Origin: Blastopirellula marina DSM 3645
GTDB lineage: Bacteria; Planctomycetota; Planctomycetia; Pirellulales; Pirellulaceae
Assembly: GCF_000153105.1 (NCBI RefSeq)
Contig: NZ_CH672377.1
Location: 482,532 to 546,531, forward strand
DNA: 64,000 nt
Direction of reading: 5' to 3'
Shown here: positions 3,989-17,178 of the stretch, one piece after another
Numbering within the stretch: position 1 is the first letter of the stretch
Layout: each line of letters starts with the position of its first letter
Made by a program: the position numbers and the translations under genes
Notes under the pieces: generated by a model
Database searches by the model: none
The model's input: the letters and a program-made list of their open reading frames with translations, nothing else
Told to the model about the DNA's origin: nothing

Positions 3989-4249
3989 GAGGAGTCCTCG
4001 TGACGGAGAGATTTGAACCATAAACCGGGGCACAACGCATGATCAGGGAGACGATAGATCCGTGCAAGTTGTTTTTTGCCGCGACAAGAGCCAGATCGAA
4101 ACGGGGTAACGTCGCTTTTTGCCGCTCCGTCACCGGGGTCTCGTCACTTCTGTCAGATTGGCAGACCAGCGGTAAAATTCGGTCGGCGTCCAAGTGCCCA
4201 GCTGCGAAATCATCGGTGATATAAGGACTTACAACACGAGCCAGTCGGT

Positions 4250-4265
4250 TGGCACAGCGGTTGCT
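4250..4265 (+). promoter_or_regulatory. sigma-54-type (-24/-12) promoter of groESL
   Basis: TGGCACAGCGGTTGCT matches the RpoN consensus TGGCACG-N4-TTGCW at all positions except the seventh. The GG (4251-4252) and GC (4263-4264) dinucleotides are exactly 12 bases apart. Transcription would start near 4276, giving a leader of roughly 105 bases to groES. No CIRCE inverted repeat is visible in 3989-4382. The element resembles those before the three DUF1559 genes downstream and shares the extension TTGCTATT(A/G)AGGGG with the one at 6616. No mapped transcript start supports it. Confidence 0.7.
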
Positions 4266-4382: not shown

Positions 4383-6388
<2,006 letters not shown>

Positions 6389-6445: not shown

Positions 6446-6479
6446 AAAAAGGGCCGCACGAAAGTGCGGCCCTTTTTTT
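6446..6479 (+). terminator. intrinsic terminator after groEL
   Basis: Perfect nine-base stem GGGCCGCAC / GTGCGGCCC with a four-base loop, preceded by an A-run and followed by seven T. It separates groESL from the first DUF1559 unit. Confidence 0.93.
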
Positions 6480-6615
6480 GTGGAAAAACAAGAGAAATAC
6501 GCAGGCGCCGCTCTCTGCGGCGCCGCTGCTGATTTCTCGTGCAATCGGCCCGAAACATGGTAGTTTCTTTGCGCAGACAAGGGGTTAGTTCGCCGGCGAA
6601 TTGGAAATTGCGACA

Positions 6616-6631
6616 CGGCATGCGGCTTGCT
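6616..6631 (+). promoter_or_regulatory. sigma-54-type (-24/-12) promoter before DUF1559 gene 1
   Basis: CGGCATGCGGCTTGCT has GG at 6617-6618 and GC at 6629-6630, exactly 12 apart, with the TTGC of the -12 box intact. The -12 GC lies 50 bases before the ATG at 6680. The downstream bases TATTGAGGGG closely resemble those after the groES element. The assignment is by sequence and position only. Confidence 0.65.
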
Positions 6632-6679
6632 ATTGAGGGGCGTGATTGAACTCAACCCCTCACGCATCCCGAGACGCTT

Positions 6680-7594
6680 ATGCCATCCTCTGCTCGCCGC
6701 AACGGTTTTACGCTGGTTGAACTGCTGGTCGTTATCGCGATCATCGGCGTTTTGATCGCCCTCTTGCTGCCGGCGGTGCAACAAGCGCGCGAAGCGGCCC
6801 GCCGTATGTCCTGCTCGAATAACATCAAGCAGGTCGGCTTGGGAATGCACAACTATCATGCGACCTACGGGACGCTGCCGTGCGGTTTCCTCACCGAGGC
6901 GTCGATCACCGTGCACAAACGACTCTGCTGGTTTCAAGTGATCTTGCCTTACATCGAACAGCAGCCGCTGTACGATCTGTACTTCGCCAATCAAACGGAT
7001 CAGGTCCATTCCATTCCGGAATCGACCGGCATTCAGCAAGTCGTCGTTAAAGATTTGATCTGTCCGTCCGAAGCGAATGCGGACGCGCGCGGTGGAAACG
7101 CGAAGAACTTTAGCTTCCAGGGAAACTACATCGGCTGCACCGGCGATGATCAGATGCATCGCTCCAATCCATTGGACGGCGTCTTCTATCCCAATTCTGG
7201 CACGGGATTTCGGGACCTGATCGACGGCTCATCCAACACGATGCTGATGAGCGAAGGGGTCAAGCGTCCCGGCAATGCGATCGCGTGGGGAGAGATCGGC
7301 GGCTATTGGGGAGGCGCACTCTGGGGCGCCTATGGCTATACGACGCTCGAATCCCCCAACACGACGGTTTCGGATCGCAACTATTCATGCAAGACGACCG
7401 ACTTCGCCAAAGCGCCCTGCATCGCGACCAGCACGTCCAATGCGTTGCAAAACTTCGCGCGCAGCTACCATCCCGGCGGCGTCATGGTGGGTATGAGCGA
7501 CGGATCGACACGCTTCGTTCCCGATACGATCAATCTGCAAACGTGGAAGAACCTCAGCACGCGCGCCGGCGGCGAAGTGATTGGCGAATATTGA
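6680..7594 (+). CDS. DUF1559 protein with prepilin-type N-terminus (copy 1)
   Basis: Planctomycete DUF1559 (SBP_bac_10) protein of 304 residues. The N-terminus has a type IV prepilin cleavage/methylation motif: RRNGFTLVELLVVIAIIGV (peptidase cut after the Gly, Phe methylated, Glu at +5) followed by PAVQQAREAARR. The C-terminal domain carries the H-X9-DG signature in HPGGVMVGMSDGSTRF. The protein is probably exported and assembled like a pseudopilin, but its biochemical role is not known. A lipoprotein gene follows 65 bases later, and the pair recurs at 8352/9331 and 10114/11074. Conserved cysteines and the segment TTLESPNTTVSDRNYSCKTT are shared with copy 2, pointing to a recent tandem duplication. 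Confidence 0.93.
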   Translation: MPSSARRNGFTLVELLVVIAIIGVLIALLLPAVQQAREAARRMSCSNNIKQVGLGMHNYHATYGTLPCGFLTEASITVHKRLCWFQVILPYIEQQPLYDLYFANQTDQVHSIPESTGIQQVVVKDLICPSEANADARGGNAKNFSFQGNYIGCTGDDQMHRSNPLDGVFYPNSGTGFRDLIDGSSNTMLMSEGVKRPGNAIAWGEIGGYWGGALWGAYGYTTLESPNTTVSDRNYSCKTTDFAKAPCIATSTSNALQNFARSYHPGGVMVGMSDGSTRFVPDTINLQTWKNLSTRAGGEVIGEY

Positions 7595-7659
7595 GCGAAA
7601 TTGGACATTGTCATTTACGATATCACGAGTTATCTTGAAGAATCGAAGAATACGAAACA

Positions 7660-8073
7660 ATGCGTTCCACAATACGATACGCCATTATTAGCCTGTTGAT
7701 CGCCTCCTTGGTCACGATGGGCTGCGGCCCAACCGGCCCGCCAAAGTACTTGGTAAAAGGGGGAGTGACGTTTAATGGCGAGCCGATTGAATCGGGCTAT
7801 ATCTGGTTCCGTGACAAATCTGGCGAAGTAGGCAGCGTGGAAGCGCGTATTAAAGATGGCGCCTACCAACTTGAATCGTTGCCGGGCGAAAAATTGGTCG
7901 AGATTTCGATGTTCAAAGAAGTGCCGCTTCCCGGCGGTAAGCCGAATGCGGAAGGCGACACCACCATGTTGGTGGAAGCGCTCCCCGAACGATACAACGT
8001 CCAGTCAATCTTAGAAGTCAACGTGGAATCCAACTTAGAAGCGCAAGACTTTGCGCTAACGACGAAGCCGTAA
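7660..8073 (+). CDS. small lipoprotein partner of DUF1559 (copy 1)
   Basis: Predicted outer or periplasmic lipoprotein of 137 residues. The signal peptide ends SLVTMGC and supplies the lipidated Cys21. The mature part is a single carboxypeptidase-regulatory-like beta-sandwich: VKGGVTFNGEPIESGYIWF, then YQLESLPGEKLVEIS and EVPLPGGK. This fold is typical of the short lipoproteins that accompany DUF1559 genes. It is about half identical by eye to the lipoprotein at 9331, so the whole pair appears duplicated. The function is unknown; a structural or carbohydrate-binding surface role is possible. Confidence 0.8.
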   Translation: MRSTIRYAIISLLIASLVTMGCGPTGPPKYLVKGGVTFNGEPIESGYIWFRDKSGEVGSVEARIKDGAYQLESLPGEKLVEISMFKEVPLPGGKPNAEGDTTMLVEALPERYNVQSILEVNVESNLEAQDFALTTKP

Positions 8074-8281
8074 TCGAGACGCTCCCATCTCTCAGTCAAC
8101 CTCCACTCTGCTGGGAATGTTCGCCCCTCACGAGAACGACACGAAATCGATCACCTGCCCCGCCGGATTGCTGCATCACCAAGCGGCTAATTTCCCATTC
8201 GGGGGAACTTTACGACACAGACCGCAGTAATTCACGCTCGAAAGAGAGCAAATATCGCAATCTCAGTCAGCAGGATCCCCA

Positions 8282-8297
8282 CGGCATATCGATTGCG
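8282..8297 (+). promoter_or_regulatory. sigma-54-type (-24/-12) promoter before DUF1559 gene 2
   Basis: CGGCATATCGATTGCG has GG at 8283-8284 and GC at 8295-8296, 12 apart, with TTGC intact. The -12 GC lies 56 bases before the proposed TTG start at 8352. It sits in the otherwise empty 8074-8351 gap. Confidence 0.6.
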
Positions 8298-8351
8298 ATT
8301 GCCTGCATTACGAACTTGTCTTCCCCCCTTTTTTCTTGCCGGAGAACTTTC

Positions 8352-9257
8352 TTGAACCTGACGAAATCTCGATATGCATTCACACTTGTCGAACTTCTTG
8401 TCGTGATCGCCATCATCGGCGTATTGATCGCGCTGTTATTGCCTGCAGTTCAGCAAGCCCGTGAAGCGGCGCGGCGCATGTCCTGCTCTAACAATATGAA
8501 GCAGCTCGGCTTGGCGATGCACAACTATCACGATACCTTTGGATCGTTTCCGTTCGGCTTCATCGGCGACCCTCCCGAAATGGCGACGCATCGTCGCATT
8601 TGCTGGATGCAGACGATCCTGCCGTTCATTGAACAAAATGCTTTGTCCGATGCGTTTAAAGCGGATACCGAAGTCTACACCCAGAACGTGCCGGATTCGA
8701 TTCAGGAAGTTGTGATCGAAGGCTTGCTTTGTCCTTCAGAAGCCAATCGTGACGCTACCGGCGGCAATTCGGTGGCCGGCTTCCAAGGGAACTACGTCGT
8801 CAATACCGGCGACGACCAAATGCATCGCTACGACCCGCTGGACGGTTTGTTCTTTAGCAAATCAAGTCTCGGATTTCGTGATACGGTCGACGGAACTTCC
8901 AACACGTTGCTCTACGGCGAAACGATCAAGCGACCCGGGACCGGCGCTTGGGGCGCAAGCGGCGGTTATTGGGGTGGCGGCGCGTGGGGATCGCATGGCT
9001 TTACGACGCTCGAATCGCCCAACACCACCGTCGCGGACCGTAACTACTCTTGCAAAACGACGACCTTCAAGAAAGCGCCATGCACGGCGACCGGCGTTTC
9101 GCATGAATTGCAAAACTTCTCGCGCAGTTATCACCCCGGCGGAGTCATGGTCACCCTGGCCGACGGTTCGACCCGCTTTATCGCGGAAACGGTCAATCTT
9201 TCGACTTGGCAGGCGCTCAGCACTCGCGCTGGCGGCGAAGTGCTAGGAGAGTACTAG
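8352..9257 (+). CDS. DUF1559 protein with prepilin-type N-terminus (copy 2)
   Basis: Second DUF1559 protein, about 301 residues. It has the prepilin motif YAFTLVELLVVIAIIGV, in which Ala takes the place of the usual Gly before the processing site, and the C-terminal H-X9-DG signature HPGGVMVTLADGSTRF. It is strongly similar to copy 1 along its length (GNYVVNTGDDQMHRYDPLDG versus GNYIGCTGDDQMHRSNPLDG). The start is taken as TTG at 8352, seven bases after GGAG. An in-frame TTG at 8316 would add 12 residues. It is followed by its lipoprotein partner. Whether a peptidase accepts Ala at -1 is uncertain, although some prepilin-like proteins have it. Confidence 0.9.
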   Translation: MNLTKSRYAFTLVELLVVIAIIGVLIALLLPAVQQAREAARRMSCSNNMKQLGLAMHNYHDTFGSFPFGFIGDPPEMATHRRICWMQTILPFIEQNALSDAFKADTEVYTQNVPDSIQEVVIEGLLCPSEANRDATGGNSVAGFQGNYVVNTGDDQMHRYDPLDGLFFSKSSLGFRDTVDGTSNTLLYGETIKRPGTGAWGASGGYWGGGAWGSHGFTTLESPNTTVADRNYSCKTTTFKKAPCTATGVSHELQNFSRSYHPGGVMVTLADGSTRFIAETVNLSTWQALSTRAGGEVLGEY

Positions 9258-9330
9258 TCTCGACCGCGAAGGCCTTCGACTCTCGCTCGGCGTTAGGCTC
9301 TTTAATTTGCAGAAAGGAACCGTGCTGCTC

Positions 9331-9735
9331 ATGCTACGTTTATCCCTACTCGTCGCAATTTTCGCGACGCCGATCCTAACCGGTTGCGGCGCCAGCGGAC
9401 CGACCTACCATACCGTCGCCGGAAGGGTGACTCTCGATGGCCAGCCGATCGCAGCGGGAAGAATCTTGCTGCGTGATCCGACGCGCCAAGTCGGCAGCGT
9501 CGAAGCTGCTATCGTCGACGGACGCTTCGAGGTGAAAGCGTTGCCTGGCCCTAAGCGTGTCGAAATCTCCGCCCAAAAGGAAGTTCCACTGCCCGGTGGA
9601 AAAACCAATATTGAAGGGGATTCCACGAGATTCGTAGAAGCTGTTCCAACCCGCTACAACAAAAGCTCAACGCTTGAGTTGATCGTCGCGGAGGATCTTG
9701 AAAACCAGGACTTCGAGTTGAAGTCCCAGCCGTAA
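9331..9735 (+). CDS. small lipoprotein partner of DUF1559 (copy 2)
   Basis: Lipoprotein of about 134 residues. The signal peptide MLRLSLLVAIFATPILTGC ends in a good lipobox (LTGC). The mature domain matches the copy 1 partner: VAGRVTLDGQPIAAGRILL, VGSVEAAIVDGRFEVKALPG and EVPLPGGKTNIEGDS. The ATG at 9331 is chosen because it begins the signal peptide. A GTG at 9322 lies closer to the AAAGGA ribosome-binding site and is equally possible. A terminator follows at 9764. Its role is presumed linked to the DUF1559 protein encoded upstream. Confidence 0.8.
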   Translation: MLRLSLLVAIFATPILTGCGASGPTYHTVAGRVTLDGQPIAAGRILLRDPTRQVGSVEAAIVDGRFEVKALPGPKRVEISAQKEVPLPGGKTNIEGDSTRFVEAVPTRYNKSSTLELIVAEDLENQDFELKSQP

Positions 9736-9763
9736 CTTTGCCGCCAGTGCGAGACGTTAGCTA

Positions 9764-9801
9764 CAAAGCCGCCTTCTTGATAAAAGTTGGCGGCTTTTTC
9801 T
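9764..9801 (+). terminator. intrinsic terminator after DUF1559 unit 2
   Basis: Stem AAAGCCGCC ... GGCGGCTTT followed by a T-run, just after the second lipoprotein gene. It makes the unit 8352-9735 a two-gene transcript. The rest of 9736-10113 holds no gene that I can support, apart from the promoter element at 10043. Confidence 0.85.
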
Positions 9802-10042
9802 TTGCGCGCGGGGTTCGTATTCGTCGTGTTGCGACGCCTCCGAATTCGCAGCTGCCGCTCTTCTAACGTCGATCACGCCGCATGGCTCCCCCTCCAGCGA
9901 ACGACAACCGATGAGGCGACGTGCAACAGTAGCTGCCCATTTGCGATGCAGTGGAACTTCGGCTTTCCGCACTTGCTAAAAAAAAATGGAGTTGGATTGC
10001 GGAATCTGGTCACTTCTTCGCGAACATGAATTTCCACTCTTT

Positions 10043-10058
10043 CGGCACACTTGTTGCG
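10043..10058 (+). promoter_or_regulatory. sigma-54-type (-24/-12) promoter before DUF1559 gene 3
   Basis: CGGCACACTTGTTGCG has GG at 10044-10045 and GC at 10056-10057, 12 apart. GGCAC and TTGC both match the RpoN consensus. The -12 GC lies 57 bases before the ATG at 10114, nearly the same distance as for copies 1 and 2. Confidence 0.65.
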
Positions 10059-10113: not shown

Positions 10114-11022
10114 ATGTCTCAAGTATCTCGCAGAAATGGCTTTACTCTGGTGGAACTGTTGGTGGTGATCGCCATCATCGGCGTTTTGATCGCACTGTTG
10201 CTGCCGGCTGTACAACAAGCCCGCGAAGCGGCGCGGCGGATGAGCTGCTCGAACAATCTGAAACAGATCGGCCTGGGTCTACACAACTATCACGACACGC
10301 ATGGCTCGCTGCCGCCGATGATCATCCAGCCAGAGACCGACAATGCGCCGGCTTGGGGTTGGAGCGCCCTGATGTTGCCGATGCTGGAACTTGGCAATGA
10401 ACATGATGCGTTGCAAGTCGGCCCATTGACGCTCACGCAGTCAGCCGCCACGACCGCTGGAGCGGAGGTTCTCGGCAAACCGTTGAATGCGTTTCTCTGC
10501 GCTTCCGATGCGGCGACAACCGATGTGACGGACAAGAAAATCAGCAATGTGTTCTTGGGCCGCTCCAGTTATCCCGGCGTCAACGGTCGCGGACCGCGCG
10601 CTTACTATGAGGATCTCTTTGTACAAGTTCTTTGCCAGGGAGTCTTCAACTCGCGAAAAAAGGGATATCGCTTTGGTGAAATCGTCGATGGACTCTCCAA
10701 TACGACGGTCGTCGGTGAGCGAAGTTATTCTGTCCGAGGAACCCCGGATGTGACCATTACGAATTGGGCCGGAACGAGCGCCTCGGCGACGGATGACGCT
10801 GGTTACAAAGGCGCGATGGAAGTCTCAGCGACGGCCGGCTATCCCATCAATGAGCCTGGTCCAAACTGGCAGTTCAAGCATTGGTTCCGCAGCATGCATC
10901 CAGGCGGCGGTCAATTCACCTTCGCGGATGGGAGCGTTCACTTCCTGAGCGATACGATCGATATGGCGACGTATGGATATCTGGCTGATCGACAAGATGG
11001 GCAAGTTTTGAGTCAATACTAG
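10114..11022 (+). CDS. DUF1559 protein with prepilin-type N-terminus (copy 3)
   Basis: Third DUF1559 protein, 302 residues. The N-terminus RRNGFTLVELLVVIAIIGV has the canonical Gly/Phe processing site and Glu5. The C-terminal signature is HPGGGQFTFADGSVHF (H-X9-DG). The central part differs from copies 1 and 2 (PMIIQPETDNAPAWGWSALMLP, SYPGVNGRGPRAYY), so it belongs to another DUF1559 subgroup. The start at 10114 has AGGGA seven bases upstream. It is followed 51 bases later by a different lipoprotein. Confidence 0.93.
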   Translation: MSQVSRRNGFTLVELLVVIAIIGVLIALLLPAVQQAREAARRMSCSNNLKQIGLGLHNYHDTHGSLPPMIIQPETDNAPAWGWSALMLPMLELGNEHDALQVGPLTLTQSAATTAGAEVLGKPLNAFLCASDAATTDVTDKKISNVFLGRSSYPGVNGRGPRAYYEDLFVQVLCQGVFNSRKKGYRFGEIVDGLSNTTVVGERSYSVRGTPDVTITNWAGTSASATDDAGYKGAMEVSATAGYPINEPGPNWQFKHWFRSMHPGGGQFTFADGSVHFLSDTIDMATYGYLADRQDGQVLSQY

Positions 11023-11073: not shown

Positions 11074-11490
11074 ATGGCCTATCGTGCAGTTGCACTAATC
11101 TGCGCCGTCACTCTGCTCGGTTGCTTTAGTAACAAGCCAGATCTTGAGTTTGGCGAAGTGCGGGGAACGGTCACCTTAAACGGCAAGGCGCTTCCCTACG
11201 CTACCGTTCGCTTTCAACCCGAAATCGGGCGACCTTCCTATGGCCGAACCGACGAAGCAGGCTCCTACACGTTGCTGTTCAGAGGGGAACCTTGGGGCGC
11301 CCTGGTCGGAAACAATACCGTCGCCATTACGACAGAGGATCAGATCGAAGATCCAACGACCGGCAAATTCAAATTCATTCGCGAATATCTGCCAAAGAAG
11401 TACCACGCCCAGACAACTCTCAACGCTCAAGTAGAGCCGGGACAAAACAGGTTTGATTTCGCCTTGGTCGATCCCAAAAAACGAAAGTAA
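11074..11490 (+). CDS. small lipoprotein partner of DUF1559 (copy 3)
   Basis: Lipoprotein of 138 residues. The signal peptide MAYRAVALICAVTLLGC ends in a lipobox. The mature domain is carboxypeptidase-regulatory-like (GEVRGTVTLNGKALPYATVRF, then YGRTDEAGSYTL), with a lysine-rich end. It is a longer-branched relative of the partners of copies 1 and 2 and lacks their EVPLPGGK motif. A GATGGAG ribosome-binding site precedes the start. The terminator at 11511 ends this third unit. Confidence 0.8.
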   Translation: MAYRAVALICAVTLLGCFSNKPDLEFGEVRGTVTLNGKALPYATVRFQPEIGRPSYGRTDEAGSYTLLFRGEPWGALVGNNTVAITTEDQIEDPTTGKFKFIREYLPKKYHAQTTLNAQVEPGQNRFDFALVDPKKRK

Positions 11491-11509
11491 ACAGAATTGG
11501 AAACTTGCA

Positions 11510-11540
11510 GGCGTCGCCCGTTGGGTCGACGCTTTTTTTT
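11510..11540 (+). terminator. intrinsic terminator after DUF1559 unit 3
   Basis: Stem GCGTCGCCC / GGGTCGACGC with a GTT loop and one unpaired base, followed by eight T. It lies just after the third lipoprotein gene. Confidence 0.85.
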
Positions 11541-12203
11541 ATGCGCCGAACAACTTTGCCGATCATCGATTTCGCGAGGGACAGAAGCTTTTCTTTTCGG
11601 CTTCTATGGCTTGACTCGCCGAACCGCGCGCAAAGCAACCGTCTGCTGCCTTACGAATAGGCAAGCGGCGGCCAAAAGCGGCTCAACGTGGGGCCGAGTT
11701 GTACGTCTCCGACTCGAACTAGGCTTTTCGTCGCGCGCGGCGATTTCGGCGCAATGCTTGCACTTAGAGCATGTCAACTTCGGTGATTTGAACGCTTCGC
11801 CAGATGCGGAAATCATCACCAGAGGTTCCGCGCAAATCAACGGCTCTTCGCGACTCCCTCCTCCGTACCGCACACCTGATTACAACTTATCTATTCGCGT
11901 GGCCGTCGTAGTCTCCCTACGGCGGCCATGTTTTGTTCCAGGCCGACTCTTGGCCCTCGAATCGTCATAACCGCTACGACGCTCGTTGTGGGTTTCGCCT
12001 TTCCGCATCCCTGCTGCGCTTCACCGCTGCTTGCGAAGCGACTTCTAAGTTACGTCCTACCTTCTGAATAGCGACGTCACCGCAGGTCTGACGGTCGCTC
12101 CCTTAGAGACGGTGCAGTTTATTGGCACTATTTACGTATCGAATAACATGCCTCACGCCGGAGGCTGTTTGTTCGGGAGCAGATCTTCACTCGATAATGA
12201 CAG
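11541..12203. other. intergenic region, one hairpin
   Basis: About 660 bases without a coding frame that I can support. A 12-base inverted repeat, TGGCCGTCGTAG / CTACGGCGGCCA (11900-11928), is followed by TGTTTT and may be a second terminator or a small-RNA end. A TGGCAC at 12123-12128 resembles a -24 box, but its partner at -12 is poor. Confidence 0.45.
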
Positions 12204-13448
12204 ATGCATATGGATTCCTCAATTTCTGGGTTCACCTGCGCATCGGTAGGCTTACCGCCATCGATGCAGCGAGAGAGCGAGGCCGCAACCAAAAATGACG
12301 TTGCGCCTAATCCGTCAGGCGAATTGCAATTCGGTGATCGTGATCTGCGTCAAAAACGCATTATTTCGGTCGATGACGAACCGATCAATTTGGCCCTCGC
12401 CGAGGCTTACCTGCGCAACGAAGGATTTGAACGACTCGAGTTTTACTCGGATCCGCAAACGGCGTTAGAAGTCGTATGCGCCGATCCGCCAGATCTGATC
12501 CTGCTTGATCTGATGATGCCGGAGTTGGATGGTCTGCAATTCCTGCAAAAAATCAGCGATTCCCAAAAACAATTGTTGGCCCCCGTGATTTTGCTAACGG
12601 CCTCGCCCGACGCATCCCATCGCCGCGACGCTTTGGAGCTGGGCGCCACGGATTTTCTGCAAAAGCCGATCCTAATCGAGGAATTGATTCCTCGGATTCG
12701 CAACGTCCTTAGCGCCGAACATTTGAAGCGTTGGTTACGCGATCAAAACCAACAACTCGAGCATCTTGTCCAATTGCGGACGCGCGAACTGGAACGGACG
12801 CAAGGCTTGATCATCGCTTGTCTGGCTCGCGCAGCCGAGTTCCGCGACGAATTGACCGGCAATCATAATCTGCGTGTCGCCCGCTACGCCGGCTTGATCG
12901 CTCGCAATGTCGGCCTGCCGTCCGAAATGGTCCGGATGATTCAGGCTGCGGCGCCGTTGCACGACATCGGTAAAGTCGCCGTCCCCGATTCGATCTTGCA
13001 CAAACCTGGAAAGTTGACCGCCGAGGAACGACAACTGATGCAGCGTCATACCGAATGGGGACGCTCGATTGTCGAACCCGAAAAAAAGTGGGGTTTCGTC
13101 ATCGCCGATCTCACCACGGGTGAAGCCGGCCAAGCGAACGCCGACCTATTGCGAGTTGCGTCTCGGATCGCGCTGAGTCATCACGAGCGCTGGGATGGCG
13201 CCGGCTATCCCGACGGCAAGGCCGGAGCCGACATTCCGGTCGAAGCGCGAGTCGTCGCCGTCGCCGACGTGTTTGACGCCTTGTCCAGCAAACGACCTTA
13301 CAAAGAGCCGATACCCCCGCTCGAATGCGTCGCAATGATCCGCGAACAAAGGGGGAAACAGTTCGATCCCGAAATGGTCGATGCGTTTGTGGAAGCGCTT
13401 CCCGAAGTACTGTGGATCGCCGATCTTTTGCGAGACAGCGTCAAGTGA
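12204..13448 (+). CDS. response regulator with HD-GYP domain (cyclic-di-GMP phosphodiesterase type)
   Basis: Two-component output protein of 414 residues. A receiver domain (residues about 52-168) has DD57-58, the phosphoacceptor Asp102 in LLDLMMPELDG and Lys154 in FLQKPI. A short coiled linker (QNQQLEHLVQLRTRELERTQ) leads to an HD-GYP domain with HDIGK (His253-Asp254), HHERWDGAGYP (326-336) and DVFDALSSKRPYK. Such proteins usually hydrolyse cyclic-di-GMP, and all the motif residues are present. The gene overlaps the next by four bases (GTGA). A hybrid histidine kinase follows 690 bases downstream, and it may be the upstream kinase. Confidence 0.93.
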   Translation: MHMDSSISGFTCASVGLPPSMQRESEAATKNDVAPNPSGELQFGDRDLRQKRIISVDDEPINLALAEAYLRNEGFERLEFYSDPQTALEVVCADPPDLILLDLMMPELDGLQFLQKISDSQKQLLAPVILLTASPDASHRRDALELGATDFLQKPILIEELIPRIRNVLSAEHLKRWLRDQNQQLEHLVQLRTRELERTQGLIIACLARAAEFRDELTGNHNLRVARYAGLIARNVGLPSEMVRMIQAAAPLHDIGKVAVPDSILHKPGKLTAEERQLMQRHTEWGRSIVEPEKKWGFVIADLTTGEAGQANADLLRVASRIALSHHERWDGAGYPDGKAGADIPVEARVVAVADVFDALSSKRPYKEPIPPLECVAMIREQRGKQFDPEMVDAFVEALPEVLWIADLLRDSVK

Positions 13449-14128
13449 GCGAGCCGCCCGAGGTAAAATCGTCTCCTTGGAAATGGACTGTCTCGGCGAT
13501 CGTCGTCGGATGGGGAGTCGCGCTTTGCGCGGTCTGGTGGAGCATGACCGCCTATTCTTACCAGATCGACGGCACGGCTCTGCCGATCGTAGCCTGGCCG
13601 AGCGACGCGAATTTGTCCATCGCCGCTGACCGGCCGACGGTACTCCTATTTTTACATCCCCGCTGCCCTTGCTCGGCGGCGTCGCTGACAGAGTTGGAGC
13701 AAGCGATTTTGGAGACGCCTGCCGCGCGAAAGCCGCGCGTGTTGGTCATCGCCGCCGTTCCGACGCAGTACGACGCTCAGTGGACAGAGACCCGCAATGT
13801 CGTACGTGGAGAGCAACTCCCTCACGCCAGCGTGGTGATCGACGCCGGCGGACTCGAATCGCACAAGTTCGGCGTCGTTTCGAGCGGACACGTGATGGCC
13901 TTCGCGCCGTCCGGCGAGCTTCTCTTCTCCGGCGGCGTGACTCAGTCACGTGGCCATGCCGGAAACAATACGGGGCGAGCCTCCCTCATACGTGCGTTAA
14001 CCGGTGTTGCGTTCTCAACAGCGGAGATCCCCGTATTCGGCTGCCGGCTTTGCTTGCCGGATCCTAGTTCGCTGGACGGATCCGGCGCAACGGCGCCGCT
14101 CGATCGCAACCAAGTCACCTTTCCCTAG
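13445..14128 (+). CDS. membrane-anchored thioredoxin-like protein (RedB-like)
   Basis: Protein of 227 residues with one N-terminal membrane anchor (WTVSAIVVGWGVALCAVWW) and a periplasmic thioredoxin-like domain. The domain has a Cys-rich start LLFLHPRCPCSAASLTELEQ in place of the usual WCxxC, and ends with a second Cys pair (FGCRLCLPDPS). It resembles proteins annotated RedB. The GTG start at 13445 overlaps the stop of the HD-GYP gene (GTGA), and the hybrid kinase starts eight bases after its stop. The three genes are therefore probably one operon. A redox-sensing accessory role to the kinase is an inference only. Confidence 0.7.
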   Translation: MSEPPEVKSSPWKWTVSAIVVGWGVALCAVWWSMTAYSYQIDGTALPIVAWPSDANLSIAADRPTVLLFLHPRCPCSAASLTELEQAILETPAARKPRVLVIAAVPTQYDAQWTETRNVVRGEQLPHASVVIDAGGLESHKFGVVSSGHVMAFAPSGELLFSGGVTQSRGHAGNNTGRASLIRALTGVAFSTAEIPVFGCRLCLPDPSSLDGSGATAPLDRNQVTFP

Positions 14129-14136
14129 GTAGTTCA

Positions 14137-17100
14137 ATGCCACTGGAAGTCCTTCGCAACACGGAGACCTCGACTGCATTCGAAGCGGCGGTCCGTCGAC
14201 GCTTCGAGCTTCAGATGACCAAGATTTATTGCAACACGGACCATCTGTTCGCTTACTTGATGCCGTTTCAATGGATTGTCGGCATCTTGTTTACGATCTT
14301 CGTCTCTCCCTTGGCTTGGTCCGGAGAATCGAGCTACATCCATCCGCACGTCTGGTTCGCGATCCTAGGGGGAGGCGTTTGCTGCCTGATTCCGTTCGCG
14401 TTGGCCGTGTATCGTCCCGGCAAGCTCAGCACGCGAATGGTGATCGCGTGCAGCCAAATGTTCTTCGTTTCGCTGCTAATCCATCTCTCTGGCGGCCGCA
14501 TTGAGACGCATTTTTACATCTTTGGATCGCTTGCGTTTTTAGCCGCCTATCGCGACATCCGCGTCTTGATTCCCGCGACCTTAATCGTCGCAGCCGATCA
14601 TCTGATTCGTGGTCTACTCTGGCCAGAAAGTATCTTCGGCATCGCCGCCGCCGACAACTGGCGTTGGCTTGAGCATTCGGCATGGGTGTTATTTGAAGAC
14701 GTTTTCCTGATTCTCACCATCCGGCAAAGTCTGGCCGAAGTGCACGCTTTGGCGATGAAGACGACCGAAGGCGAGTTGGCTGTAGAACGACTCGCGATCG
14801 CCAAACGTCTCGCGGAGCATAACGAAGCCCAGTTTCGCGCGACCTTTGAATACGCCGCGGTTGGAGTCGCTCATATTGGCTTCGACGGCTATTGGCTGCG
14901 CACCAACAAAAAAATCTGTGAGATGTTGGACTACAGCGAACAAGAGTTGCAACGTCTGACCTTTGCCGATGTGACCTGCCCAGAAGACAAAGAGATCGAC
15001 GATCGTCATCTACAAGACTTTCTCAACGGCGAAATCGAGGAAGCTTGCTTTGAGAAACGTTACGTCAACCGGAACGGAGAGATCATCTGGGCTCGTTTGA
15101 CGATCTCCGTCATTCGCGATGACGCCTACTTTATCGTCGTGATCGAAGATATTCGCGAAGAGCGACAGGCGCGCGAAGACCTGGAGAAGTCCAACCGCGA
15201 AATTCACAAACTCTCGCTCGTCGCGGCCAAAGCTCGACAATCCGTCATCATCGCCGATAAGTTCGGTCGCATCGAATGGGTCAATGACGCATTCACGCAG
15301 TTGACCGGGTACGCGCTGCCCGAAATCATCGGTCAAAAACCGGGAACGCTGCTCCAAGGTCCCGAGACCGATCCGAGCACTGCGGCCTATATCGGTGAAC
15401 GCTTGCGATCGCGTGAACGGGTTAGCGTCGAAATCGTCAACTATTCAAAGAGTAGTGAGAAATACTGGATCGCGCTCGAAATTGAACCGGTGTTCGACGA
15501 ACAACATCGTTTGATTCAGTTCATCGCGACGCAAACCAACGTGACCCACCGCAAGAAACATGAAGCGGAACTGCGTCGCGCCAAAGAGACGGCGGAAGCG
15601 GCCAACGCCGCGAAAAGTGAATTTTTGGCAAACATGAGCCACGAAATCCGCACTCCGCTCAACGGGCTGCTCGGCTTTACCGATCTGTTACTGCGCGGTG
15701 CGGCGAATGATCCGCAAAAGCGAGACGAATACCTGCAGATCATTCGCACCAGCGGCCGCAACTTGCTGGATGTGATCAACGATTTGCTCGATTTGTCCAA
15801 GATCGAGGCCGGCAAGCTCGAAACCGAATCGCTCCCCTGCGATCCCCAAGCGGTTGTCGCCGAAGTCGTTTCGATTTTGCGCGTCAAAGCGGACGAGAAA
15901 GCATTACGACTCACCTGTGATTGGTCCGGCGAAGTTCCGCCGCAAATCGTCACCGATTCGGTTCGCCTCCGGCAACTGTTGACCAATCTGATCGGCAATG
16001 CGATCAAGTTTACGCAGTTTGGTTCCGTGTCGATCGACGCCGGTTGGCACGCTCCCCTGCAGCAACTGACGTTCGTCATTCGCGACACCGGCATCGGCAT
16101 TCCCGAAGAGAAGCTCGACCTTATTTTCGACCCGTTTACTCAAGCGGACGCCACGACGACGCGCCGATTTGGCGGAACCGGACTTGGCTTGGCGATCTGC
16201 CGCCGCATCGCGCGCCTGCTTGGGGGCGACGTTTCTGTGGAAAGCGAAATAGGCGCCGGGTCCACGTTTACGGTGACGATCGCCGCTCCGCTGTATGACG
16301 CGCCTCCCACGCTCGATGGTAAGCAGGCTGGCGAAATCACCGCCAGAAAAAAGGCGCCGCCGAATGGTTCGCTGCAGTTTGCTGGAGTTCGCGTTCTGGT
16401 CGCGGAAGATGGACCGATCAACCGCTTGTTGGTCGAAAACATGCTTGCGCCGCTCGGCTTCGAGCTGACCTTTGTTGAGGATGGGCAGATGGCGCTCCAG
16501 CGCTTCGAGGAAAGCCGATTTGACGTCATTCTCATGGACATGCAGATGCCGGTGCTCGACGGATACGCCGCCAGCGAACGTTTACGCGCCACCGGTTGCG
16601 AAGTTCCGATCATTGCAATGACCGCGCATGCGATGGCTTCGGATCGTCGCAAATGTCTGGATTCCGGTTGCAATGACTATATCAGCAAGCCGGTAATGCT
16701 GGAGCAGATGTTGGCGATCATCGAAAGCAATTTGCCCGCCGCTGCGGCGCTGGACCAACCGCTGCTTTCACCGACCATCGAGCCGCCGTCGGAAAACGCC
16801 GCTCCCTCGCCGACTAGCGATCTGCCGCTCGTCTCCGACGTGCTGCCTTCCCTGGCGACGCTCGCGCCGGTCGTGGATCGATTTGTGATGACGCTGCCGG
16901 ACTCCCTCTCCGAAATTTTAGAAGCGGCCGAAAACGCCGACTGGGCGAAGGTCGAAATTCTGGCGCATCGCCTGCGAGGCGCCAGCGGAGGCTGCGGCTT
17001 CCATTCGCTCTACGAAATCGCGAGTACGATGGAAGAATCGGCGCGCTCTCAAAAACAGACGCCGAGCCCTGATCGCGGCCAAGCAATTTTGACCGATCAT

Positions 17101-17178
17101 GGGCGCCTTTTCAAAATGTTGCCGCGTCTGGAAGATTCGACCGGCAATCGGCCGCACGCGGCGAACCCCAGCATCTAA
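14137..17178 (+). CDS. PAS hybrid sensor histidine kinase with receiver and HPt domains
   Basis: Membrane sensor kinase of 1013 residues. The N-terminal quarter has several hydrophobic helices (about residues 35-195: WIVGILFTIFVSPLAW, MVIACSQMFFVSLLIHL, RDIRVLIPATLIVAADHLI). Two PAS domains follow (FRATFEYAAVGVAHIGFDGY and SVIIADKFGRIEWVNDAFTQ). Next come HisKA with NMSHEIRTPLNG (His502), an ATPase domain (IGNAIKFT, RDTGIGIPEE, FGGTGLGLAI), a receiver domain with Asp801 in LMDMQMPVLDGY, and a C-terminal HPt domain with His944 in LAHRLRGASGG. All phosphorelay residues are present. It lies in an operon with the thioredoxin-like and HD-GYP genes, and phosphotransfer to the HD-GYP receiver is plausible. 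Confidence 0.93.
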   Translation: MPLEVLRNTETSTAFEAAVRRRFELQMTKIYCNTDHLFAYLMPFQWIVGILFTIFVSPLAWSGESSYIHPHVWFAILGGGVCCLIPFALAVYRPGKLSTRMVIACSQMFFVSLLIHLSGGRIETHFYIFGSLAFLAAYRDIRVLIPATLIVAADHLIRGLLWPESIFGIAAADNWRWLEHSAWVLFEDVFLILTIRQSLAEVHALAMKTTEGELAVERLAIAKRLAEHNEAQFRATFEYAAVGVAHIGFDGYWLRTNKKICEMLDYSEQELQRLTFADVTCPEDKEIDDRHLQDFLNGEIEEACFEKRYVNRNGEIIWARLTISVIRDDAYFIVVIEDIREERQAREDLEKSNREIHKLSLVAAKARQSVIIADKFGRIEWVNDAFTQLTGYALPEIIGQKPGTLLQGPETDPSTAAYIGERLRSRERVSVEIVNYSKSSEKYWIALEIEPVFDEQHRLIQFIATQTNVTHRKKHEAELRRAKETAEAANAAKSEFLANMSHEIRTPLNGLLGFTDLLLRGAANDPQKRDEYLQIIRTSGRNLLDVINDLLDLSKIEAGKLETESLPCDPQAVVAEVVSILRVKADEKALRLTCDWSGEVPPQIVTDSVRLRQLLTNLIGNAIKFTQFGSVSIDAGWHAPLQQLTFVIRDTGIGIPEEKLDLIFDPFTQADATTTRRFGGTGLGLAICRRIARLLGGDVSVESEIGAGSTFTVTIAAPLYDAPPTLDGKQAGEITARKKAPPNGSLQFAGVRVLVAEDGPINRLLVENMLAPLGFELTFVEDGQMALQRFEESRFDVILMDMQMPVLDGYAASERLRATGCEVPIIAMTAHAMASDRRKCLDSGCNDYISKPVMLEQMLAIIESNLPAAAALDQPLLSPTIEPPSENAAPSPTSDLPLVSDVLPSLATLAPVVDRFVMTLPDSLSEILEAAENADWAKVEILAHRLRGASGGCGFHSLYEIASTMEESARSQKQTPSPDRGQAILTDHGRLFKMLPRLEDSTGNRPHAANPSI

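Follow-up and report, generated by a model that had tools for sequence, protein, structure and literature searches.

The window, i.e., the whole stretch of 64,000 nucleotides from Blastopirellula marina DSM 3645 that was analyzed, carries on its forward strand groES (4383..4712) and groEL (4772..6388), both named from their sequences by eye, followed by three gene pairs (units 1–3), in each of which a DUF1559 gene is paired with one for a small lipoprotein-like protein. The DUF1559 genes are located at 6680..7594, 8352..9257 and 10114..11022, their partners at 7660..8073, 9331..9735 and 11074..11490, all in the same orientation. Pfam and NCBIfam searches assigned the three DUF1559 proteins to their family with PF07596 scores of 170–200 bits against a cut-off of 23.3 (unit 1 also matched PF07963 and TIGR04294), and all of them combine a pilin-type N-terminus with an H-X9-DG tail. 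Unit 2 starts with TTG, a codon at which a sister species has ATG. The small proteins were recognized as lipoprotein-like by eye from their translations; those of units 1 and 2 matched no Pfam or NCBIfam family, and that of unit 3 gave a weak CarboxypepD_reg match in Pfam, below the cut-off. Hairpins followed by a T run and resembling terminators were read directly from the forward strand 3' of groEL (6451..6479, kept in the genus member G080) and 3' of unit 2 (9765..9799); both are absent from the list of the scan that yielded the hairpin at 11897..11931 described below. Compared with the PF07596 paralog family the proteins of the units look ordinary, and the unusual part is the promoter.

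Sigma54-type sites in front of units 1–3

The first-pass annotation had read GGCA-N6-TTGC, the hallmark of -24/-12 promoters, ahead of each DUF1559 gene. Inspection of the sequence and a pattern search bore this out on the forward strand for unit 1 (GGCATGCGGCTTGC, 6617..6630), unit 2 (GGCATATCGATTGC, 8283..8296) and unit 3 (GGCACACTTGTTGC, 10044..10057). The 12-base spacing from GG to GC is exact in all three, and the -12 GC lies 50, 56 and 57 bases 5' of the respective start codons (ATG 6680, TTG 8352 and ATG 10114), as had been stated. With a sigma54 matrix that scores 17-base sites, and that follows the published consensus and not a fit to this phylum, the sites reached 13.7, 9.7 and 13.4, respectively; the weakest, that of unit 2, is thus below our main cut-off of 12. 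In the GG/GC distance of 12, the GGCA and TTGC cores and the short distance to the gene, the sites resemble sigma54 promoters. In all three the base before GG is C instead of the consensus T, so that none matches the full consensus. A T at this position is not absolute among known sigma54 promoters. Since the DUF1559 proteins of units 2 and 3 are 65% and 38% identical to that of unit 1, and the bases flanking the three sites differ, the sites do not appear to have been duplicated recently from a single promoter.

The pattern occurs seven times in the window (2.7 expected; at least seven in 3 of 100 shuffles). Two sites had been overlooked in the first reading, namely a stronger one before groES (4251–4264) and a near match, GGCG-N6-TTGC, at 11748–11761. 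The latter (GGCGCAATGCTTGC, forward strand), a fifth sigma54-type site, precedes a conserved non-coding stretch and, like the groES site, is shared by the four genus members compared. A terminator-like hairpin found by the scan (11897..11931, forward strand) follows about 136 bases 3' of it; its 11 inner pairs are kept across three aligned species, with 2 of the 11 changed on one side. An Rfam search of positions 11400–12300 gave four matches, all far under the gathering scores.

The genome (6.66 Mb in three contigs) contains a single rpoN (PF04552) with the RpoN box ARRTVTKYRK. Seventeen matches to PF00158, 13 of them strong (>160 bits), were detected, none inside the window. Among the ten strong loci examined, the GAFTGA loop read GAFTGA in five, GSFTGA in three and GAFTDA in one, with one unmatched. 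Because PF00158 matched all 14 control genomes, a match alone is weak evidence for an enhancer-binding protein (EBP).

Enrichment before DUF1559 genes

The genome holds 151 PF07596 matches. Exact copies of the pattern arise about once per 54 kb per strand, close to the roughly 65 kb estimated in the first-pass annotation, and there is no genome-wide excess (245 matches vs 284 for the reversed pattern). Yet among the 150 of the 151 PF07596 matches examined, six had an exact copy no more than 120 bases from the start, where 0.30 would be expected (P = 7e-7), which agrees with the claim that the sites are not due to chance; without the three genes of the window, 3/147 remained (0.29 expected, P = 0.003). 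It is thus the position that makes these sites special. The matrix gave a corresponding picture. In the 150-base leaders of 150 DUF1559 genes, ten sites scored at least 12, compared to a mean of 0.6 (maximum 3) in 30 shuffles, to one in the segments 250–400 bases upstream, and to none on the other strand or in reversed leaders.

A matrix comparison with other genes, of the kind proposed as a check, also revealed an enrichment: 12/144 DUF1559 genes but 11/644 other genes were preceded by a site of at least 12 (Fisher p = 2e-4), the reverse strand giving zero and three, respectively. This comparison covered 1.31 Mb, processed with a simple gene caller, and intergenic leaders no longer than 200 bases where the gap was 60 or more; from 149 DUF1559-like genes called, five were dropped owing to too short a gap. 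The other genes were drawn from the surroundings of the DUF1559 genes, from the window and from ten additional stretches of 20 kb; their starts are those of the simple caller, and a few late-called DUF1559 genes may sit among them. Without the window the difference was weaker (10/140 vs 10/615, p = 0.0012; p = 0.015 at a cut-off of 11). With the window, cut-offs from 9 to 15 gave p = 0.09 at 14 and p < 0.03 at the rest, uncorrected for the seven cut-offs.

We also scored the two blocks of the motif at varied offsets. At the sigma54 offset a two-block score of at least 11.5 was found in 12/144 DUF1559 leaders of B. marina and in 11/102 of the sister species G018, as opposed to 0–5 and 0–3, respectively, at 13 other offsets, and only the sigma54 spacing stood out.

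Conservation and variation in the genus

G018 belongs to the same genus (its unit-2 protein is 77% identical), and in 0.88 Mb of its genome the gene calls included 103 from DUF1559. Sites of at least 12 preceded 7/102 DUF1559 genes and 3/463 others (p = 4e-4), and the reverse-strand control gave one and five. With three forward and five reverse sites, the other genes show no excess; they include one DUF1559 gene (C4:585644, score 11.2) that was counted there owing to a start placed too far downstream. In both genomes the motif was more frequent before DUF1559 genes than before the other genes examined.

Orthologs revealed that largely the same genes carry the sites. Among 51 reciprocal-best DUF1559 pairs, a site of at least 9.5 was present in both members of six, in B. 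marina only in one, in G018 only in two and in neither member of 42 (p = 1e-5); six of seven B. marina genes with a site thus keep it in the G018 ortholog. The gaps between site and gene are similar in the six conserved pairs (117/117, 55/63, 56/56, 55/58, 107/113 and 97/109 bases). Two of these pairs are units 2 and 3, whose G018 orthologs carry GGCACATCGATTGC and GGCACGCGCATTGC, respectively, the latter with the same 56-base gap; the remaining four are located away from groESL.

Behind groEL the equipment of the units varies within the genus, with sites before 3/3 DUF1559 units in B. marina, 1/2 in G080, 2/2 in G018 and 0/2 in G107. G080 carries GGTA-N6-TTGC (score 9.0) at the same place in unit 1. 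Its unit 2, with a protein identity of 93% across 241 compared residues, has no site, and the gene sits close behind the unit-1 lipoprotein gene. A search of 18 kb of G080 did not reveal the unit-3 gene, nor did one of 20 kb of G018 reveal unit 1. In G107 groEL is followed by two DUF1559 genes, the first apparently short. None of the six best-scoring hits in this stretch, each of at least 9.9, is a site of these genes, so that a site as weak as that of unit 2 could be missed by this list.

Beyond the genus we searched 119 family genomes for unit 2 and examined the best 30 loci, 26 of which came from other genera. These 26 relatives are 36–50% identical and may not be orthologs; two had a site of at least 12 in the 200 bases 5' of the nearest ATG (L156, 15.5; L158, 15.8), and four more scored 10 to 11.4 (L148, L153, L159 and L161). 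A scan of named genomes gave two close relatives of unit 2, with best scores of 11.4 and 5.5 in the unit-2 leader.

The groESL site and candidate enhancers

The sigma54-type -24/-12 site of groESL (TTGGCACAGCGGTTGCT, 4251..4264, forward strand, identified by pattern search) scores 16.9 and is nearer the consensus than the DUF1559 sites, with T before GG. Relatives of groES were found in 119/119 family genomes. We examined the best loci of 30 of these, and the start was found in 29. In 28/29 leaders a site of at least 12 lay 108–169 bases away (the exception, L206, reached 7.8), and on the reverse strand none of the 29 reached 12 (best 10.8). The family sites closely match TTGGC-N8-TTGC. Upstream of the B. 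marina site we noticed a palindrome (CTGTCAGATTGGCAG, 4150..4164, forward strand) of the form CTGYCAN3TGRCAG. It recurs in 24/29 groES leaders, 99–155 bases 5' of the matrix site; L206 carries another copy further off. B. marina has one exact copy in its genome (six of the reversed pattern), and the 28 of 213 fetched loci that contain it comprise 25 groES loci and three others with a groES leader. Judging from this distribution, the palindrome fits the enhancer of a groESL-specific activator. As a common enhancer it was rejected for the DUF1559 units, as it is absent from all three.

A second palindrome occurs twice on the forward strand near unit 1, as GATTTCTCGTGCAATC (6531..6546, one mismatch to GATNTCNCGNGANATC), 84 bases 5' of the unit-1 site when measured from start to start, and as GATATCACGAGTTATC (7619..7634, one mismatch) between the unit-1 genes; both copies are identical in G080. 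With zero to one mismatch GATNTCNCGNGANATC was also located 70–73 bases 5' of the site in three B. marina DUF1559 genes and two G018 orthologs, and 141 bases 5' in a fourth B. marina gene. When the 420 bases before the start were searched with at most one mismatch, the motif was found in 5/12 B. marina DUF1559 genes with a site (at least 11.5) and in 0/132 without one, although four of the five genes had served to define the motif and only unit 1 represents new evidence. The same search in G018 gave 3/10 with a site (one copy lying downstream of it) and 2/92 without, and other genes with a site had no copy (0/15 in B. marina, 0/5 in G018). Exact copies number seven in the B. marina genome vs one in a single third-order Markov sequence of equal length, and copies with at most one mismatch 53 vs 37 in one such sequence; an initial comparison of 53 vs 3 overstates the excess. 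Several of these places recur in sister species. The motif also precedes nagB-like, ceramidase-like, cytochrome-like and DUF1080-like genes (named by eye from translations), so that a general regulator is a likelier binder than an EBP. As an enhancer of all DUF1559 sites GATNTCNCGNGANATC was rejected, since only part of them carry it; some of these promoters may use it for activation, or it may belong to another regulator. A single EBP site common to units 1–3 was not found, the second palindrome being upstream at unit 1 only.

Interpretation and alternatives

Taken together, the computed enrichment, spacing and conservation of the sites and the presence of rpoN and of EBP-type genes make it very likely that the sites of units 1–3 are RpoN (sigma54) promoters and that DUF1559 genes of this type are a minority. 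This retains one part of the first-pass proposal that DUF1559–lipoprotein modules form an RpoN regulon, namely the sigma54-like sites, and leaves the other, that the modules as such form the regulon, unsupported: 132/144 DUF1559 genes are without a site of at least 12, the share with one in G018 is 7/102, and sites are missing at unit 2 of G080, among the six best hits in G107 and, at this cut-off, before most relatives in other genera. RpoN-type promoters very probably serve about 8% of the DUF1559 operons and not the family, whose remaining genes probably use other promoters.

According to this reading, RpoN polymerase would wait at the site of each unit until an ATP-driven EBP opens the promoter upon a signal. 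Transcription from the predicted start sites would then produce a bicistronic message with a short leader, encoding a pilin-type DUF1559 surface protein and a small lipoprotein. Because an EBP is needed for opening, the units would be expected to be off until the signal arrives. They stand behind groESL, for which we propose its own, stronger RpoN-type promoter and a single-copy palindromic enhancer candidate; a link to folding or envelope stress may exist. A broader picture, which we put forward tentatively and regard as rather unlikely, is that the main chaperonin operon of the family is RpoN-driven with a dedicated enhancer and that a constant small part of the expanded DUF1559 operons of the genus, together with one non-coding RNA, joined it in an RpoN-driven folding and envelope response.

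The sites might instead reflect a local effect of groESL, in which the units would borrow its enhancer by DNA looping and no DUF1559 regulon would exist. The location of the strongest site and of the single-copy palindrome at groESL, together with the lack of such a palindrome at units 1–3, would suit this idea, and the bases after TTGC are alike at 9/14 positions between unit 1 and groES (2–6 in other comparisons); it would, however, demand that the enhancer reach over about 2.5 to 5.9 kb, and it is at odds with the ten further DUF1559 genes outside the window scoring at least 12 and with the conserved pairs away from groESL. We consider it unlikely. Less probable still is recognition of a similar motif by a different sigma factor, e.g., an ECF one: planctomycetes are rich in ECF factors (R. 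baltica has 37, PMC2754498) and the DUF1559 sites lack T before GG, but the sigma54 spacing alone stands out, the groES sites lie near the sigma54 form and rpoN is present. Chance matches selected by eye, to which the missing genome-wide excess could point, are already disfavoured by positional enrichment and ortholog conservation and are hardly credible.

The interpretation of the sites as RpoN promoters of a DUF1559 minority can be set beside earlier work. From the published sigma54 consensus TGGCAC-N5-7-TTGCT (PMC12316311) the DUF1559 units differ by the C before GG. A 2025 survey predicted sigma54 enrichment in Planctomycetia for the GroEL/GroES/GrpE/DnaK cluster and, to a lesser degree, for COG2165 pseudopilins (PMC12316311), a group that probably covers DUF1559 proteins. 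No word beginning with DUF occurs in its main text, and the passages compared here mention neither conservation between orthologs nor a test of the spacing nor a palindrome at groES. In the passages considered from PMC12316311, PMC2754498 and PMC10632474, DUF1559 is not tied to RpoN. In R. baltica, nine of 74 DUF1559 genes rose within the first hour of cold and salt shock and 16 were down in heat, and rpoN showed no change in heat and was down in salt stress (PMC2754498). This stress response fits a conditional control of DUF1559 genes and does not show RpoN to be involved; the behaviour of rpoN itself counts against such a role.

In planctomycetes few paralog families are as large as DUF1559, as is apparent from the number of matches in B. 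marina and from P. limnophila, where it forms the biggest paralog group with 68 members (PMC10632474). The copies that are likely under RpoN provide a short gene list for finding the signal. The groESL palindrome, which is single-copy here and shared by most family leaders examined, would offer a direct way to the activator behind a chaperonin operon of sigma54 type.

Results and discussion

The palindrome CTGYCAN3TGRCAG (window 4150–4164), which is present as a single copy in the organism's own genome, was located upstream of the sigma54-type (RpoN) site of groES. The same arrangement was found in groES leaders of the family (within L183–L212), and inspection by eye showed that TGRCAG, a half-site related to this palindrome, occurs again 3′ of the promoter in many of these leaders. 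A distinct second palindrome with a central CG, GATNTCNCGNGANATC, occurred repeatedly in sister species (L308–L337) before genes that we assigned by eye as sugar-related or cytochrome-like. It appears to be the site of a general regulator.

One gene of the enhancer-binding protein type (L131) carries GAFTDA in place of the loop motif GAFTGA. Directly 3′ of the cluster, window 12204–17178 contains an HD-domain response regulator together with a large hybrid histidine kinase.

The non-coding stretch at window 11600–11950 yielded matches in 4 of the 119 family genomes searched, all belonging to the organism's own genus. It harbors a fifth sigma54-type site (window 11748), near-invariant among the matching genus members, and a hairpin (window 11897–11931). 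The stretch may represent a small RNA driven by RpoN.
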